In this document: positions 15,327 to 29,070 of the stretch, one piece after another | Layout of the letters: each line of letters begins with the position of its first letter | Position numbering within the stretch: position 1 is the stretch's first letter | NCBI GenBank assembly: GCA_027618565.1 | Contig: JAQCEQ010000010.1 | Location: 1-64,000 of the forward strand | Direction of reading: 5' to 3' | From: Planctomycetota bacterium | Lineage (GTDB): Bacteria; Planctomycetota; Phycisphaerae; Phycisphaerales; SM1A02 | Length of the DNA stretch: 64,000 nucleotides | Translations under genes and position numbers: made by a program | The notes under the pieces: model-generated | The model's database searches: none | What the model was told of the DNA's origin: nothing | What the model saw: only the letters and a program-made list of their open reading frames with translations

Positions 15327-16115
15327 GTGCCACAGCCACTTGGACAATTCCCGAGATCGCTCCTGGCGCACTCGCGCTGGTTGAAGATTGAGGGAATCCC
15401 GTGCGTCTTCATGCATCCGCAGCTGGACGCCGCCGCACCGGAGGCGTGGCCCACGACTCCGCTCCCGACGGTCCTCTGGCTGCACGGCAGAACGGTCACC
15501 AAGGAACTGGACCCGGGTCGATACCAGCGCTGGCTCGCTGCCGGGATGGCGGCCATCGCGATGGACTTGCCGGGACACGGCGAGCGGCTGGAGGCGCAGC
15601 TCCAGGCGCCTGGCTCGCTGGCGGAACTCGTCGATCGTTGCGCTCCAGAGCTGGATGTTGTCGCGGACTGGGCGCAGCGGAACGGGTGCTCCTTGCCAGA
15701 TCGCTGGGGCATCGGCGGGATGAGCGCTGGCGGGATGGTGGCGGCGTGCCGACTCTGCCAGTCACACCGGTTCAGTGTGCTGCTGCTGGAGAGTTCCACC
15801 GGCGACTTGCTCTCTCTCCCGGGCGCGGCGCAGCGCGGCGGACAACGGTTGGCAGAACTCTCTCCCCTTGACCACCTCCACGACTGGCGAGACATCCCCA
15901 CCCTGGCGCTCCACAGTGCCAAGGACGAAGTCGTCCCCGTCGCGGGCACCCGCCGGTTCATCGACGCGCTTCGGGTACGGAGCACTCACCCGGATCGAGT
16001 CACGCTCCACGAGTGGGACTCCACCGGGGCCCCCGCCGAACACGTCGGGTTTGGCCGAGTGGCCGCCGAGGCGAAGGAACTGGGCACCCGGTTCCTTCAG
16101 CGTTGGTTGGCGTAG
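15327..16115 (+). CDS. Alpha/beta-hydrolase family protein
   Basis: The 262-aa protein (GTG start at 15327) shows the strand-turn TVLWLHGRTVTKE (oxyanion HG), the nucleophile elbow GMSAGG (about residue 132), a late acid SAKDEVVP and a C-terminal His (EHVGFG), a complete hydrolase triad. There is no signal peptide. The substrate cannot be inferred. It resembles dienelactone-hydrolase-like or esterase-type members. It follows rsmD closely and overlaps the convergent lipoprotein gene by 19 bp. Confidence 0.8.
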   Translation: MPQPLGQFPRSLLAHSRWLKIEGIPCVFMHPQLDAAAPEAWPTTPLPTVLWLHGRTVTKELDPGRYQRWLAAGMAAIAMDLPGHGERLEAQLQAPGSLAELVDRCAPELDVVADWAQRNGCSLPDRWGIGGMSAGGMVAACRLCQSHRFSVLLLESSTGDLLSLPGAAQRGGQRLAELSPLDHLHDWRDIPTLALHSAKDEVVPVAGTRRFIDALRVRSTHPDRVTLHEWDSTGAPAEHVGFGRVAAEAKELGTRFLQRWLA

Positions 16116-17161
16116 GGGCTCTCGCCGCGGTAGATCCAGCCACTCGCGCCTCGCGCCGTGACCGCCTGCACGAAACGACGGAAGTCCGCATCCAGCGAGG
16201 AAGCGTCGACCCCGAACACCTCGCGGAACTGGTCACGAAGTCGCCGTGGCCCCGCCCCCCCGTCCCTCACGCGGCCGGCGGCGGCATCGGTGAGCATCCG
16301 CTCCAGGGCGGGTCGGTACCGCCCGTGGTCGTATTCCGCCAAGAAGTGGATCAGCACCCACACATGCGCGTAGTAGTCAAGCAGCGCATCGCGCCCTTCC
16401 AGGAGGAACCCTTGCGGTGTCCCGGTGATGACCACCTCCAACGGTCGCACCGCGTTGGCTGAGACAAGATCCTGGAGGGCGCTGTATCGCTCCATGTTGC
16501 GCCACGGGCGGAACTCGGGCTCGCCGGAGCGAAGGCCGACGCATCCCTCGCAGTAGGTGGCCATCCCTTCGTCCAGCCACGGCGGCAAGCTGGAGCCAAA
16601 GGTGGACTGCGCGTACTGGTGCCACCCCTCGTGGGCCGCGATGGTGAGCGTGTCGAAGTAGCCGATGTCGTACAGGACACTGATGCCATGCCGTGTGTAG
16701 CCACCCCGGCCGATCCGGCGGTAGATGGCGGCATCCTCACCAAGATCTCGTTCCGCATGCGCGATCCACTCCGGACGCGTCCGGTAGACAAAACTGGTCA
16801 GCGCACCCAAGGGAGCCGGCAGCGGCACGATGGCCGATCGGTAGTGCTTCAGCGCGGCCTCCTGGAATCCGGGGAGGATCGCGCGCAGGCGGGTTTCGTG
16901 GAGCGTCGTGTGGATCGCATACGACGGCGAGAGGAGCAGCAGGCCGTCGTCACGCTCTTCTATCACGACAGGCACTTGCAATGCTGTGGCCAGTGCGCCC
17001 GCTGCCGCGAGGGGTCCCGGCGGCGCCACGGCGGCGTCAAACGGAGCGGGAGCAATCGAGCCCGTCGTCCGCGGTGCGCACGCTGCCAAGAGGAACACTC
17101 CGGGCGTCAGCAACGCGCCCGCGGCGACCACGAACCAGCGTCCTTGGGTCACCGTCCTCAT
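16097..17161 (-). CDS. Putative zinc metallopeptidase-like lipoprotein (HExxH)
   Basis: The 354-aa product has a lipoprotein signal peptide ending in LLAAC (about residue 28). A gluzincin-like motif HEGWHQYAQ (HExxH) is followed about 18 residues later by DEGMATYCEG, supplying a plausible third zinc-ligand Glu. This layout matches peptidase MA-like proteins. Activity is not proven. Its ATG overlaps the stop of valS in an ATGA (17158-17161), so it is translationally coupled to valS, an odd functional pairing. The C-terminus overlaps the convergent hydrolase gene. Confidence 0.75.
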   Translation of the reverse strand: MRTVTQGRWFVVAAGALLTPGVFLLAACAPRTTGSIAPAPFDAAVAPPGPLAAAGALATALQVPVVIEERDDGLLLLSPSYAIHTTLHETRLRAILPGFQEAALKHYRSAIVPLPAPLGALTSFVYRTRPEWIAHAERDLGEDAAIYRRIGRGGYTRHGISVLYDIGYFDTLTIAAHEGWHQYAQSTFGSSLPPWLDEGMATYCEGCVGLRSGEPEFRPWRNMERYSALQDLVSANAVRPLEVVITGTPQGFLLEGRDALLDYYAHVWVLIHFLAEYDHGRYRPALERMLTDAAAGRVRDGGAGPRRLRDQFREVFGVDASSLDADFRRFVQAVTARGASGWIYRGESPYANQR

Positions 17162-22106: not shown

Positions 22107-22152
22107 CGGGCGGAAACGATAGTGGATGCCGTCGGCGTACCATGAGCGATCC
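22107..22152. promoter_or_regulatory. Divergent SDR/AsmA-like promoter region
   Basis: TATCGT (22116-22121, minus) ends 9 nt before ATG 22106. TACCAT (22138-22143, plus) ends 9 nt before ATG 22153. The second site favours 22153 over the in-frame ATG at 22126. Confidence 0.45.
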
Positions 22153-25100
22153 ATGGCGCAGCGCTCCGATGCCAGCCCCCGACGGCGGGCGAGCCTGCCC
22201 CAACGCATCTGGCGCATCAACCTCCGGTGGATTGGGATCGCGTTGATCCTGCTCGCGGCGGTGCTGCTCGACGGCCGCGCTCCCCGACACCTTCTGGCAC
22301 TTGCGCTTGGCCGAATGGTGGGTGCGGATTGCACGATCGACAGGCTTCGGCTGGAGGGCGCCAACCTCGTCGCGCGCGATGTTCGATTCAGTGCACCGTA
22401 CTGGCAGGGTCCCGGCGCCGAGGTGGCGCGGGTGGACACCGTGCGCGCCGATGTGGACTGGTGGTCGGTGCTGCAGTTCAGCCCACGGCTGGACGCCCTG
22501 GTCCTGGACGGCGGCCGGCTGCAGTTGGTGGAGTCGGAACGGGATCCACCCACCTTCAACATCGGTGCGCTTCGCACCATCCGGACGCCGCGCGCGGCGG
22601 AGGGCGCTGTCGCGGGAGAGCTCCCCTTCGACTCGCTCGAGATCAAGAACTTCGTCTACCAGACTGGCGTCGTCGGTCCTACTGGGCTTGAACTGGGTCA
22701 GCAAGTCCCGCTGGAAGTCAGCTGCACCAAGGTGGACCCATCCAGCTCGACCTGGCACGTGACGGCAGGGTTGCCAAGCGCCTCCATCTTCATCCAGGGC
22801 GCCTACGACGCTGGCTCGACATCCCTCTCGCTGGACCTGAAGCCGATGCCCTGGAACGAGACGCTGCTCGATCTCGTCCCAAGCCGCGTGCGCGCCGTCC
22901 TCGCCGCGGCGAAGCCTGACGGGACGATCAGTCGTGCGACCTTTGTCGCCGTGCGCAACCAAGTCCCGAACGTGCTGCTGTCCATCCGGGGGTTCGGCGC
23001 CCAGCTCCCGAAATCCATGGTCCCCAGCACCTGGGTCACGCTTTGCGGTGGCTTGGTCAGCCCCACCGAAGGAACGCCGGCGCTTCGCGTCGATGAGGCG
23101 GACGCGGAGCTGACCGCGACCATGGTCCGGTTGACCTCCCTCAAGGGCGCGCTCATCGCTGCCGGGACGAGCGACCTTGATGCCGAGATTCCGATCGCGG
23201 CGAGCGGTTCGATCGACCTCGCGTCGCTGCCCCCGGTGGCACCGGGTGAATCGACCAGCCGCCTCTCACAGCTGCTCGATCGCGCGGCCTTCTCAATCGA
23301 GCTTGACATCCCTGGATTTCGGCTGGAACGGGCCGGTACGGGCAGCTGCATCCTTCTGCCCAAGGGTGTCGCCGACGCCTTGGACAGCCTCAGTGTCACC
23401 TCCATGGCCTTCGACCTGACCGCCTCGCTCCGTCGCGATCGAAGCGACCTCGGTGCCACCCCGGCACCGATCCAGTCACGAGCGACGATTCTCTTCCTGG
23501 ACGGTTCACTGACGCCTCCGCAATTCCCACTTCCCCTGAGCGGCATCGAGGGCATCGTGACGGTTGACCCGGATCGAATCGACTTCACTCGACTCACGGC
23601 GCAGGCCCCGGGCAACGCCAGCATCTCGATCTCGGGAACCGTGGAGGACCTGGCGGGACCTCCCACGCTGGACCTGAGGATCGGCTGCCAGGGCATCACG
23701 ATCACGGATTCGCTCCGCGGCGCCGTGGACGCAGTGGCCGGCGACATCCTGGACGAGATCTTTGACCAGGAATCAGCAGATGCCATCGCTCCCGCCGTGG
23801 AGGCCGCCGGGTACGGCCCGTTCGTCCCGGGGGGACGGGCGGCCTTTCAGTTCCAGGTTCGCCGCTCGACACCCACCGACACTCCCGTCGAACTGCGCGG
23901 GGACCTGCGGATCCTGCAGGGGCAGGTGCTCCTGCGAACCTTCCCGCTCCCCCTCGTCGGAACGGGTGGCCTGCTCCACTTCGAGCCCGACGGCGTCACC
24001 ATCGTCGAGCCGATCCAATTCTGTTCGCTTGCCGGAGGAACCGGCGCGGTCGGCGGAGCGGTGCGATTCACTCGGCGCGACGATGGCCTCCTCATCGGCG
24101 TCCCAGACTTGGAATTCTCCGCGACCGGAGTACCAGCCAACTCGCTCCTCTGGCGAGCGGTGCCTCCAGCGGTGCGCGCCGAGTACGCCGAGTGGCCGGC
24201 CAGCCCATCGCTGGAGGGCTCCATCCTCTCCTCCTTGCATCCCCTCGGGACCTTTAGCGTGTCCGGCAAGGTGCTTCGATTCGGCGCGGAGCCGGAGTTT
24301 GACATCGTGATCGATGTGTCGGACGCCTCGTTCGGCCCGGCGATCGATTCCGTCGCACCCGATCACATCGGCTGGCCGGAGCGGCTGGAGCTCACCGACG
24401 CCAGCGTCCGGGTCCGCATCACGCCCGGTCGGGTGGCCTTGGAACGCGCCGCAGGAGACTCCTGCGGAGGGAGGGTGGTGGCCGCCGGCATCATCTCGGG
24501 TGACCTGACCGACATCGACATCCACGCCAGCGAGCTGGAGCTTGGACACACCCTTGAAGCCCTTGGACTGATCGATCCCAGAGTCCCCCCGGCGTGGTGG
24601 AGCAGCGCACGGCCCGTCGGGACGCTCGATGCCAGGGTGTCGATCGAGGGTGCCTCGACAACGGCATCGGTCGTACCGACCGTGCTCGAGTTCACCCTTG
24701 GCGGCGAGCGACTCGAGTCCCGCTGCGAAAAGGGAACCATCTCCATCAACGACCAAGACATCCTCATCGATGGGCTGCGGTTCCTCGTGAAAGATGCATC
24801 GAGCGACCCGCCGTCCCTCTCGGACGCAGACGAGGCCGCCACCGATCCGGTGCTCGTCGACCTCACGGGACGCGTGAAGCGCGCCAGCCCTGGCGACGGC
24901 GAGTGGGGCGTGACGATTCCCCAGGCATCCCCGGCCTCGGCGCTGGTGCGCGGCGCATTGAGGGAGGTGGGCGCCGAGGACCTGGCCGACATCTTGCAGC
25001 GCCTCGGATTGGGGCTTGACGCCTCCGCGCACGCGGCTGGGGTTGGCGCACGCCTGGAGCGCCTCGACATCGTGCCGACGCGAGCGACCGTTGGAGTCGG

Positions 25101-26193
25101 AACCGCCCACCCACTCACGGTGGAACTCTCGCCCGCGGCGCGCATGGTGATCCAGGACGGCACGATCCTCTCGCGCGACCTCGAGGGACGGCTTCCCGGC
25201 GGGACCCTCACGCTTGGCGTGGAGGGTCACCTCGGCGATGACTCAAGGCCTGGATGGGGCCGCGTCACCGTGTCGGTGGCGGCCGACGGATCGCCATCGC
25301 TCCTCTCGCTCGTCCCCGAACCTGTCCGATCGTCCCTTCAAGGGCTGGACTTTGAACCGGGACAGCGAGTCTCGCTCCTCGCCGGAACCGTTTCCTGGGA
25401 AGGTGGCTCGGCGCGGGCGGAGTTCCCGGTGGGCTTGACCGGCGCGCGGATCGACTTCGGCGTGCCCATCGAGGAGTATGACGGCTTGGTGGATGTCGTC
25501 ATCGACGACCAGGATTGGAGCGTGGCCTGCTTTCCGGTGGATGCCTGTGTGGCCAACACTCCAGCGAGGCTTCCGTCGGCCCTCATCCAAGGTGGCTCGG
25601 ACACTTCCGCGATCCGCGCCCGCGTGGATGTCCCGGTGGGTCACGGCATGGTGTCCGGAAGGGTGACGGTGGACGAAGGAAGGTGGACAGTCGATGTGGA
25701 GGCTTCGGAGATTCCCTGGTCCGATCTGCTTCGTGCGGCCGGGGTCCACACGACGGCACCGGGGATCGTCGAGGGCCGCGCACGGGTCGCGGGCGGTCCG
25801 CTCTCCACGCTGGCCGGGTCGGGATCGATCCGTGTCACGGAAGGTGACTTTGGCGCTCCGCCCCCCGATTTCTTCAACCCCGTGCGCCTGGGGAGCGACA
25901 ATCGACTGTCCGAACTGGACGCCACGCTCTCGCTCGACGGGGACACGCTCACGATCGTGGAGTCCGAGCTCCGTGCCGGAAAGTTCCGGCTCCTGGGCGA
26001 TGGCTCGATCGACCTGGCGGACGCCACGATCAACGCCCGGATGCGCGGTCGTTCGCCCGTCCCGCTCCTTGGCGACTTGGTAGGCGCGGTGACGGACACG
26101 ATGGTGCAACTGGAACTGCGAGGACCCGTGGCGTCGCCGGAGTCTCACATCGTTCCCTTGCCTGGGCTACTCTCGCCCCGGAAGCAGCCATGA
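22153..26193 (+). CDS. Giant AsmA/YhdP-like membrane protein
   Basis: The 1346-aa protein has one N-terminal membrane helix (IGIALILLAAVLLDG) and then a very long periplasmic beta-rich body. The opening block (CTIDRLRLEGANLVARDVRF) and the C-terminal block (LDATLSLDGDTLTIVESELR, then GDGSIDLADATINARM) are typical of AsmA-superfamily proteins such as YhdP/TamB. These are thought to bridge inner and outer membranes and move phospholipids. Assignment is by architecture and end motifs. ATG 22126 is an alternative start. Its stop overlaps the next gene as ATGA (26190-26193). It fits the outer-membrane theme of the window. Confidence 0.8.
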   Translation: MAQRSDASPRRRASLPQRIWRINLRWIGIALILLAAVLLDGRAPRHLLALALGRMVGADCTIDRLRLEGANLVARDVRFSAPYWQGPGAEVARVDTVRADVDWWSVLQFSPRLDALVLDGGRLQLVESERDPPTFNIGALRTIRTPRAAEGAVAGELPFDSLEIKNFVYQTGVVGPTGLELGQQVPLEVSCTKVDPSSSTWHVTAGLPSASIFIQGAYDAGSTSLSLDLKPMPWNETLLDLVPSRVRAVLAAAKPDGTISRATFVAVRNQVPNVLLSIRGFGAQLPKSMVPSTWVTLCGGLVSPTEGTPALRVDEADAELTATMVRLTSLKGALIAAGTSDLDAEIPIAASGSIDLASLPPVAPGESTSRLSQLLDRAAFSIELDIPGFRLERAGTGSCILLPKGVADALDSLSVTSMAFDLTASLRRDRSDLGATPAPIQSRATILFLDGSLTPPQFPLPLSGIEGIVTVDPDRIDFTRLTAQAPGNASISISGTVEDLAGPPTLDLRIGCQGITITDSLRGAVDAVAGDILDEIFDQESADAIAPAVEAAGYGPFVPGGRAAFQFQVRRSTPTDTPVELRGDLRILQGQVLLRTFPLPLVGTGGLLHFEPDGVTIVEPIQFCSLAGGTGAVGGAVRFTRRDDGLLIGVPDLEFSATGVPANSLLWRAVPPAVRAEYAEWPASPSLEGSILSSLHPLGTFSVSGKVLRFGAEPEFDIVIDVSDASFGPAIDSVAPDHIGWPERLELTDASVRVRITPGRVALERAAGDSCGGRVVAAGIISGDLTDIDIHASELELGHTLEALGLIDPRVPPAWWSSARPVGTLDARVSIEGASTTASVVPTVLEFTLGGERLESRCEKGTISINDQDILIDGLRFLVKDASSDPPSLSDADEAATDPVLVDLTGRVKRASPGDGEWGVTIPQASPASALVRGALREVGAEDLADILQRLGLGLDASAHAAGVGARLERLDIVPTRATVGVGTAHPLTVELSPAARMVIQDGTILSRDLEGRLPGGTLTLGVEGHLGDDSRPGWGRVTVSVAADGSPSLLSLVPEPVRSSLQGLDFEPGQRVSLLAGTVSWEGGSARAEFPVGLTGARIDFGVPIEEYDGLVDVVIDDQDWSVACFPVDACVANTPARLPSALIQGGSDTSAIRARVDVPVGHGMVSGRVTVDEGRWTVDVEASEIPWSDLLRAAGVHTTAPGIVEGRARVAGGPLSTLAGSGSIRVTEGDFGAPPPDFFNPVRLGSDNRLSELDATLSLDGDTLTIVESELRAGKFRLLGDGSIDLADATINARMRGRSPVPLLGDLVGAVTDTMVQLELRGPVASPESHIVPLPGLLSPRKQP

Positions 26194-28103
26194 GACGCAA
26201 CCGAGGACACCCAGGCGATCGCCCGTCACCGATGCCTGATGCGCCGCTCCCGCTCTCCCCCGAGCACTTCGCGGTGCTGGAAGGCGTCGCGCGGAGTGCC
26301 ATGGGCGGCGATGTCGACCCAAGCGCCCTTCGCGCCACCATCGAGGCGATGGAGGCGGCGGTCGGTGCGCTCACCGATCGCTCGGAGACCCACCAGATCC
26401 GTCTGGTGCGGACGGCGATGCGCGAGGTCCGAAGCGCCTTCCGGATCTTCAACAGGTACGCGGGTGTCCGCAAGGTGGCGATCTTTGGATCGGCACGGAC
26501 GCCCACTGACCATCCTGACTACAAGGCAGCGCTGGAGTTTGGCCACCTGCTCAGCGCCGCCGGCTGGATGGCCATCACCGGCGGTGGCGAAGGCATCATG
26601 CGCGCGGGACTGGAAGGTCCAACCCGTGACCGAAGCTTCGGCCTGGTCATCCACCTTCCCTTCGAGTCAAAGGCGAATGCCGTCATCGCGGGTGACCACA
26701 AGGCGATTCGGTTCCGCTACTTCTTCACGCGCAAGGTGGCCTTCCTCAGCCATGCGGACGCCATCGCGGCGTTCCCGGGCGGCTTTGGCACGCTCGACGA
26801 ACTCTTCGAGGCCCTCACGCTCATCCAGACCGGGCGCGGGACGATCGTCCCGCTCGTGCTGGTCGAAGGAGCTGGCCCAGACGGCAAGCCACGAGGTTGG
26901 TGGCGCGACGCGGAACGCTGGATCCGTCGTCGGCTCCTGGATGAGGGCTGGATCTCGCCCGAGGACCTCTCGCTCTTCGAGCGTGCATCCTCGCCCCAGG
27001 ATGCCGCGGAGCGGATCGCCAAGTTCTATCGGGTGTTCCACTCCAGCCGGTATGTCGGGGATCGACTGGTGATCCGACTGCAATCCGCAGTGGCACCGGA
27101 GGCGGTCGAGTCGCTCCAGGCCAGGTTTGCGCCGCTCCTGTCTCGCGGCCGCCTGAGGACCTCGGAAGCCCTTCCCGAGGAGAAGGGCGAGCATCCCGAT
27201 CTGCCACGCCTGGTGTTTGCGCACACTCGGCGCGACTATGGAATGGTGCGCCAGCTCATCCACGCCATCAACAAGCTTCCGGTACGCGTGGCCGCCTTCC
27301 TGTGTTGCGCCACGCTCATCGCATGCGGCACCGGGGAATCCGTGAGGGAGCGCCCGTCCGCCAGCCGTTCGCCGGTGACCAGCCCCGCCGCCCCCGGCCA
27401 GCACAGCGGGCTGGAACTGGTCAGGATCACCCTCCCCTGCAGTCCAGCAACGCTGGCTCCCTACCTTTCGGCGCTCCGTGCTCCCGACGGGCTGGAGCCG
27501 AGCGCTCGATCCAGGCTGCAGCGAAATGGCATCGCCATCGGCGTCCTGAACGAGCGCGAGTTGCTCGCCATGGTGGATGCCGTTGGTGGTGTCCTCCAAG
27601 AGTCGCGCACCTGGCTTGGGCAGGGCGCACAGTGGATGCCCTTGGTTCGCCAGCCCGCCGACCCGTTTCCGAGGTTGTTCGTCGATGGGCGCCTGCTTGC
27701 CGGTGGGCGTGGTCATCTGGAGTGTGTGACTCGCGCCTGGGCGATCGAAGAGTCGACGGGTGAGTCGATCGACACCCAGTTTGCCGTGATGGCGATCGCT
27801 CCCGCCACCCGGCGACCGTTGTCGACATCGGCGCCTCAGCTGCGGAATCCGGACCAGGGCCGGCTCCTACCGGGAACCTCGGGGTTCTTCACAATCCATC
27901 GCGGCGAATTGGCAATCGTGGCGCCCTGGGGAACTGGATCCGTCGATCCAGCTCGCGGGCCCAGCGACGGCGAGGGTCCATCGATCCCCACGCCGGGGGA
28001 CGCACTCCTGACCACACGCTTCGGAACCAAGGGCGCCAGCACGATCCTCCTGCTGGTGCCAGTCGGACTTCGAGACCTCCAATCGAGTCACCTCAGTCCG
28101 TAG
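26190..28103 (+). CDS. LOG-family nucleotide-binding protein fused in frame to a lipoprotein-like domain
   Basis: Residues 1-350 form a LOG/TIGR00730-type Rossmann protein: VAIFGSARTPTDHPDY, AITGGGEGIMRAG and the signature FPGGFGTLDELFE (PGGxGTxxE). Relatives hydrolyse nucleotide monophosphates such as cytokinin precursors or serve as nucleotide-binding proteins. From about residue 352 the sequence changes to MVRQLIHAINKLPVRVAAFL then CCATLIACG, which looks like a lipoprotein signal peptide with lipobox, and a 250-residue unrecognised domain follows. No stop separates the parts. The ATG at 27243 could be an internal start. Options are a real fusion, internal initiation giving a separate lipoprotein, or loss of the LOG stop. 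Coupled to the AsmA-like gene by ATGA. Confidence 0.8.
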   Translation: MRRNRGHPGDRPSPMPDAPLPLSPEHFAVLEGVARSAMGGDVDPSALRATIEAMEAAVGALTDRSETHQIRLVRTAMREVRSAFRIFNRYAGVRKVAIFGSARTPTDHPDYKAALEFGHLLSAAGWMAITGGGEGIMRAGLEGPTRDRSFGLVIHLPFESKANAVIAGDHKAIRFRYFFTRKVAFLSHADAIAAFPGGFGTLDELFEALTLIQTGRGTIVPLVLVEGAGPDGKPRGWWRDAERWIRRRLLDEGWISPEDLSLFERASSPQDAAERIAKFYRVFHSSRYVGDRLVIRLQSAVAPEAVESLQARFAPLLSRGRLRTSEALPEEKGEHPDLPRLVFAHTRRDYGMVRQLIHAINKLPVRVAAFLCCATLIACGTGESVRERPSASRSPVTSPAAPGQHSGLELVRITLPCSPATLAPYLSALRAPDGLEPSARSRLQRNGIAIGVLNERELLAMVDAVGGVLQESRTWLGQGAQWMPLVRQPADPFPRLFVDGRLLAGGRGHLECVTRAWAIEESTGESIDTQFAVMAIAPATRRPLSTSAPQLRNPDQGRLLPGTSGFFTIHRGELAIVAPWGTGSVDPARGPSDGEGPSIPTPGDALLTTRFGTKGASTILLLVPVGLRDLQSSHLSP

Positions 28104-28146: not shown

Positions 28147-29070
28147 ATGAACCCGACGACTGAGCCACCTCCGCAGCATGCGCGCCGCCGCCTGTTTCCA
28201 CTGCGCGGCTTCCGCAGGCCACTGCCGGCCATCGGCGTGATGCCGACCATCATGACGTTGGGCAACTTGGTCTGCGGATTCGCGGCCATCCACTACGCCA
28301 GCAAGCCCGTTGCCTCAACCGGGTTCCAAGGCTGGAGCACGCTCACCGTCGCAGCCACTCTCGTCTTTGTCGGGATGTTTTTTGACGCGATCGACGGATT
28401 CGTCGCCCGGCTCACACGGACCGCCAGTGAGTTTGGCGCGCAGTTGGACTCCATGGCCGACATGGTGACCTTCGGCGTTGCCCCGGCGATCATGATGCTC
28501 CGGCTGGTCAGCCACTACTTTGGATCCGACGACACCGCCATCTTCAGTCCCGACGCGCAAAGCACCTACGCCAAGGCCACCTGGGGCATTGCTGGCCTCT
28601 ACATCTGCTGCACCGCCCTGCGCCTCGCCCGGTTCAACGCCGAGACCGTGTCGCTGGAGGCCGAGGGACACCGGTACTTCCGCGGACTGCCCTCCCCGGG
28701 CGCGGCCGGACTGGTGGTGAGCCTCATCATCCTCCACCAGCACCTCGTCGCCCAGAGCGTGGACGGGCTGCACGGCGCGTTGGAGCGGTTCTCCAGCCTG
28801 GCGATTCCCGCGGGCGTCCTCGTCGCCGGCCTCCTGATGGTGAGCCGGATTGGCTACCCGCACTTCGTCAATCGATACCTGCGCGGCCGACGGGACTTCG
28901 CCACGGTCGCGCGAATCGTCCTGCCGATTCCGTTCCTGGTGTGGTATCTCCAGGAGTCGCTGGCTGTCGCGTTCGTGGTGTACGCGCTCAGCGGACCGGT
29001 CATGCAGACCTGGGCGGCGATGCGGCGGACCTCGTCGTCGGATCCCCGCGGGGCTCGATCGCCCTCATGA
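28147..29070 (+). CDS. pssA: CDP-diacylglycerol-serine O-phosphatidyltransferase
   Basis: It makes phosphatidylserine at the inner membrane from CDP-diacylglycerol and serine. The CDP-alcohol phosphotransferase signature is complete: DG-x2-AR-x8-G-x3-D-x3-D in [14 protein letters not shown] then GAQLDSMAD. The N-terminus [19 protein letters not shown] is typical of the PssA type rather than PgsA. Several membrane helices fill the 307 residues. The stop overlaps the trpB start (ATGA, 29067-29070). The PssA/PgsA distinction rests on the N-terminal motif. Confidence 0.88.

Follow-up and report, generated by a model that had tools for sequence, protein, structure and literature searches.

The protein described here shares with the LOG family (TIGR00730; cytokinin riboside 5′-monophosphate phosphoribohydrolase-like; PDB 5wq3, 5zi9) a Rossmann-type domain with the PGGxGTxxE motif, and its residues 94–278 align to the solved LOGs. 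It differs from them in a long N-terminal helical extension and a C-terminal region, both of which are common to its relatives from the same planctomycete order, and in being joined to a lipoprotein. This second part resembles the bacterial lipoproteins of the Lgt/LspA pathway in its positive n-region, hydrophobic core and LIAC lipobox. Unlike in ordinary bacterial lipoproteins, however, the signal is internal, with approximately 350 enzyme residues ahead of it. Two proteins of different compartments are also combined in one chain with an internal signal in FbcH (cytochrome b/c1) of Bradyrhizobium, reportedly a fused precursor that is cut at this signal. In FbcH the first partner is said to be a membrane protein and the ordinary signal peptidase to make the cut, whereas the present chain starts with a predicted soluble enzyme and has a lipobox as its presumed site. 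A literature search yielded no papers on the processing of fbcH products.

Stop-start overlaps such as ATGA are known to couple the translation of neighboring operon genes by termination-reinitiation (PMC6728339; PMC10666635). A distance of approximately 20 nt nearly abolishes this coupling, and overlapping genes are enriched among the subunits of complexes (PMC10666635). Most split relatives of the gene pair studied here show the identical −4 nt geometry. In contrast, a deletion has removed the junction and left a single frame in the window, i.e., the whole stretch of 64,000 nucleotides from a Planctomycetota bacterium (GCA_027618565.1, contig JAQCEQ010000010.1) that was analyzed. No papers on LOG-lipoprotein pairs in planctomycetes were found in a literature search.

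The fused reading frame and its neighborhood

As stated in the preliminary description, a LOG-family protein runs in frame into a lipoprotein-like part: the frame is unbroken from ATG 26190 to the TAG ending at 28103 (Table 1). The genome of the window (G000) comprises 2.26 Mb and is fragmented into 62 contigs, and the named relatives matched are planctomycete MAGs (Phycisphaerae/Phycisphaerales, “Planctomycetia bacterium”). Downstream of the fusion, the CDP-alcohol phosphatidyltransferase gene is followed by a trpB-like gene; this downstream gene order is shared with the genomes G001, G002 and G003 and with locus L165. In L165 (2–5875) the genes for the AsmA-like protein, LOG, lipoprotein and pssA are linked via 4-nt ATGA/GTGA overlaps. 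Compared with L165, one overlap junction of the window section 22126–28103 is the fusion and the next one (28103/28147) is a gap.

Table 1. Positions of the fused gene, its parts and its neighbors in the window.
Feature	Position	Strand	Basis
AsmA/DUF748-like gene, 5′ neighbor in operon-like cluster	22126..26193	+	weak DUF748 match, below cut-off; order as in L165
ATGA overlap of LOG start codon and stop codon of upstream AsmA-like gene	26190..26193	+	ORF coordinates
Fused LOG-lipoprotein ORF, 637 aa	26190..28103	+	ORF coordinates; spanning match without stop
LOG domain (TIGR00730/Lysine_decarbox), residues 95–278	26472..27023	+	profile matches; alignment to solved LOGs
LOG C-terminal helix, residues 350–360	27237..27269	+	pLDDT block mean 97; conserved in 114 LOGs
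ATG, residue M352, LOG helix residue and candidate internal start	27243..27245	+	column of 114-LOG alignment
Hydrophobic region of lipoprotein signal, VAAFLCCATLIA, residues 367–378	27288..27323	+	filter; comparison with signals of split lipoproteins
Lipobox L-I-A-C, Cys379 at 27324–27326	27315..27326	+	Cys column conserved in at least 90%
Mature lipoprotein domain, 258 aa, predicted alpha/beta then beta-rich	27327..28100	+	AlphaFold; homologues in 105 split loci and G003
Stop codon of the fusion, TAG	28101..28103	+	
CDP-alcohol phosphatidyltransferase (pssA-like), 3′ neighbor	28147..29070	+	order as in G001, G002, G003 and L165

The LOG half and where it ends

The N-terminal half is a LOG protein by family profiles and motif, and is predicted to be an enzyme. 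It matches PF03641 with 79.1 bits (cut-off 27) and TIGR00730 with 96.6 bits (cut-off 96.35), and its PGGFGTLDE motif (residues 196–204) is intact, the fixed positions of PGGxGTxxE being invariant across 39 relatives. The equivalog model for cytokinin LOGs (NF058542) was not reached (score 35, cut-off 300).

According to the preliminary description, the LOG domain ends around residue 350, where relatives stop. This boundary lies too early, as orthologues align up to residues 362–369 in a search with the whole ORF. In an alignment of 114 LOG proteins, columns 352–364 continue the LOG alignment and are conserved, with R354 and N361 being identical in all 114. The AlphaFold model of the LOG part, built on 39 aligned LOGs, exhibits a confident helix at residues 350–360 (pLDDT block mean 97), and confidence drops only from about residue 368. 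As the alignments, the conserved columns and the helix agree, MVRQLIHAINKLP is, by alignment and model, the last helix of the LOG protein.

The in-frame ATG at 27243 is present as described; by the same alignment and model it is an ordinary LOG codon. Its column is occupied by L (43), R (31), M (13), H (12) and V (7) in the 114 LOGs, and M occupies this position in 11 of the 112 split LOGs, among them all members of the nearby clade g17. The idea that M352 was gained together with the fusion as a dedicated start was dismissed as proof on these grounds. The helix in the window contains no acidic residue in 352–364, the usual D being H358, which is the case in just one of the 112 split LOGs. This would fit a role as a positive n-region, a feature spotted post hoc, and would be favored alike by a start at the Met and by a long precursor. 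The corresponding helix region of fused G003 has kept one Asp.

The lipoprotein half

The proposed lipoprotein signal stands in part: VAAFLCCATLIA followed by C at residues 367–379 has the expected pattern, but it does not form one unit from M352 on, the first approximately 13 residues of which are LOG helix. Only the hydrophobic part (residues 367–378) and the lipobox are of lipoprotein origin. Taken together, NKLPVR, VAAFLCCATLIA and C379 comprise a positive n-region, a core with a mean Kyte-Doolittle value of 2.55 over 12 residues, and a lipobox whose Cys is shared by at least 90% of the aligned lipoprotein homologues. The signal is located internally, at approximately residues 362–379 of the ORF, and would be N-terminal only with a start at 27243. 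With one simple filter applied to 47 non-overlapping ORFs of the window, VAAFLCCATLIA plus C was the sole internal lipoprotein-type motif. A separate ORF on the minus strand (16097–17161) has an ordinary N-terminal lipoprotein signal (LAAC, Cys28) and could serve as an in-genome control.

The lipoprotein domain was predicted with confidence by AlphaFold (pLDDT 85, pTM 0.82). Profile and sequence searches yielded no relative in Pfam, NCBIfam or the sequences of the PDB, a fold search against the PDB gave nothing under an E of 0.09, and a Pfam search on 57 family members returned chance matches only. With approximately 105 homologues, a confident predicted fold and no PDB match, the domain (27327–28100) is a candidate new family. 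It is nearly restricted to the order of the window: a class-wide sample contained 76 genomes with a match, 73 of them from this order, and the other three matches were weak.

Compared with G001, the lipoprotein half shows a dN of 0.54 and a dS of 2.0, the latter near saturation, i.e., a ratio of about 0.26; the ratio for G001 versus G002 is similar (0.33). As far as the sequence tells, this half is alive and under coding constraint. Genes for Lgt and LspA are found in G000 (PF01790, 169 bits; PF01252, 102 bits). As lipobox, hydrophobic segment and coding constraint are all retained, the C-terminal half is predicted to be probably still exported and lipidated.

A split gene pair fused apparently twice

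Besides the window and G003, an iterated HMM search found a separate homologous lipoprotein directly downstream of LOG in 105 of 113 loci. The lipoprotein is in the −1 frame in 86 of these 105 split loci, and 69 have the 4-nt stop-start overlap (−4). The only two further genomes of the genus in the comparison set, G001 and G002, belong to the split group: here the two parts are separate adjacent genes, with an ATGA overlap between LOG stop and lipoprotein start. As orthologues are mostly split, the suspicion of a lost stop codon is borne out for the window. In locus L174 (G148:C6:104500–107500), the LOG stop TAA directly abuts an in-frame ATG that starts the lipoprotein, so that one change would be enough to fuse this pair.

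The distance between the M352 codon and the codon of the lipobox Cys, counted by hand on the sequences, is 81 nt in the window, 152 nt in G001 and 125 nt in G002, so that the window has lost 71 or 44 nt net. Neither 71 nor 44 is divisible by three, and the two frames were thereby merged. Comparison with the genus-mates shows a deletion across the overlap: the LOG tail is gone together with its stop codon, and the lipoprotein has lost its start codon and the n-region of its signal.

Had the fusion been a conserved single form, orthologues should share it, and the comparison suggested in the preliminary description revealed split genes instead, with two apparently independent fusions. Matches spanning both parts without a stop were found only in G000 and G003, among the matches listed from 269 genomes of the order (each at least 90% complete), in a search that would miss distant lipoproteins. 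G003 belongs to another genus; its fused frame comprises 625 aa from a TTG, and its genus-mate G158 is split. The net difference between G003 and G158 is just 2 nt (101 vs. 99), which makes a sequencing error conceivable in G003. In a tree of the LOG part computed without the junction columns, the window groups with split G001 and G002 (100%), inside split g1, and G003 with split G158 (99%). As each fused LOG is placed beside split ones, two apparently independent fusions are the simplest history, each being known from one fragmented genome. The hydrophobic region and the lipobox are kept in both (LIAC in the window, LSAC in G003). Taken together, the comparisons argue for a genuine, rare but explainable and lineage-specific fusion of two operon neighbors, one coding for a LOG enzyme and the other for a lipoprotein specific to the order.

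How the fused protein may be processed

A chain may in principle have a cytosolic domain ahead of a signal and its C-terminus outside. The ribosome would make a single precursor of 637 residues, the LOG part of which would fold in the cytosol. The last LOG helix and the tail MVRQLIHAINKLPVR, which is positive and without acidic residue, would serve as the n-region of the signal, and VAAFLCCATLIA would insert at the translocon so that the C-terminus comes to lie outside. As the lipobox is intact, Lgt would be expected to lipidate Cys379 and signal peptidase II then to cut ahead of it. The products would be a soluble LOG with a mostly hydrophobic tail of approximately 17 residues and an ordinary lipoprotein, i.e., the pair of products that split relatives also make, here with their ratio fixed at 1:1. 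We give about an even chance to such a single precursor with LOG in the cytosol, the lipoprotein outside and a cut at Cys379. The fuller proposal of a natural precursor in which signal peptidase II frees a cytosolic enzyme from an exported lipoprotein at an internal lipobox, which evolved twice from an ATGA-coupled pair and in which the last helix of the enzyme became the n-region, is tentative and falls somewhat short of an even chance. A folded domain of 350 residues before a signal of 12 residues might target poorly.

One frame could also yield two products if, beside the long protein, a start at ATG 27243 (or GTG 27246/27288) gave a normal pre-lipoprotein. The ATG lies in frame 27 codons ahead of Cys379, and fused G003 likewise has Met in the M352 column, where Leu stands in G001 and G002 and Gln in G158. 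However, M352 is explained by homology given its occurrence in split LOGs, and no Shine-Dalgarno-like sequence precedes the ATG, in a phylum that uses few strong Shine-Dalgarno sequences (PMC6728339). Re-initiation, moreover, requires a stop close by (PMC10666635), and it is this stop that is lost in the window. Internal initiation appears unlikely. A different outcome of the long chain, in which the internal signal acts as an uncleaved signal anchor and keeps the LOG enzyme at the membrane, joined to its external partner, would suit the conservation of the pair, since overlapping genes often encode complex partners (PMC10666635), and the apparent twofold origin of the fusion. Yet the hydrophobic stretch of the window is short for this with its 12 residues, Lgt and LspA are encoded, and in both fusions an intact lipobox ends the hydrophobic stretch, which is the pattern of a cleaved signal. 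Such a tether is distinctly improbable.

The high number of contigs and the two genus-mates without a fusion would suit an assembly or sequencing artefact masking a normal ATGA junction. A single-base sequencing error in the window was dismissed, however, as it would be insufficient: 44–71 nt, including the n-region and the LOG tail, are gone compared with both genus-mates. The frame is otherwise clean and constrained, and a second, separate fusion exists in G003. An artefact is very unlikely, and a precursor cut at Cys379 is the reading we prefer.

Implications and related observations

The locus represents a natural experiment in which translational coupling was replaced by a fusion across a compartment border. 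As its most useful by-product, the analysis strongly links a LOG enzyme to a lipoprotein family: the tight tie of this order-specific lipoprotein to LOG (105 of 113 loci and two fusions) is the first functional lead for it. If signal peptidase II cuts the precursor, internal lipoboxes of other annotated fusions deserve re-inspection.

Very long frames upstream of LOG in G192, G195, G190, G012 and G028 were considered as AsmA-LOG fusions and dismissed, as the AsmA homology lies in another frame. In GC-rich DNA the AsmA-like gene has shadow frames, and the long frames 5′ of LOG in loci L169, L170, L171, L172 and L173 are of this kind; they are a trap when fusions are called from the length of open frames.
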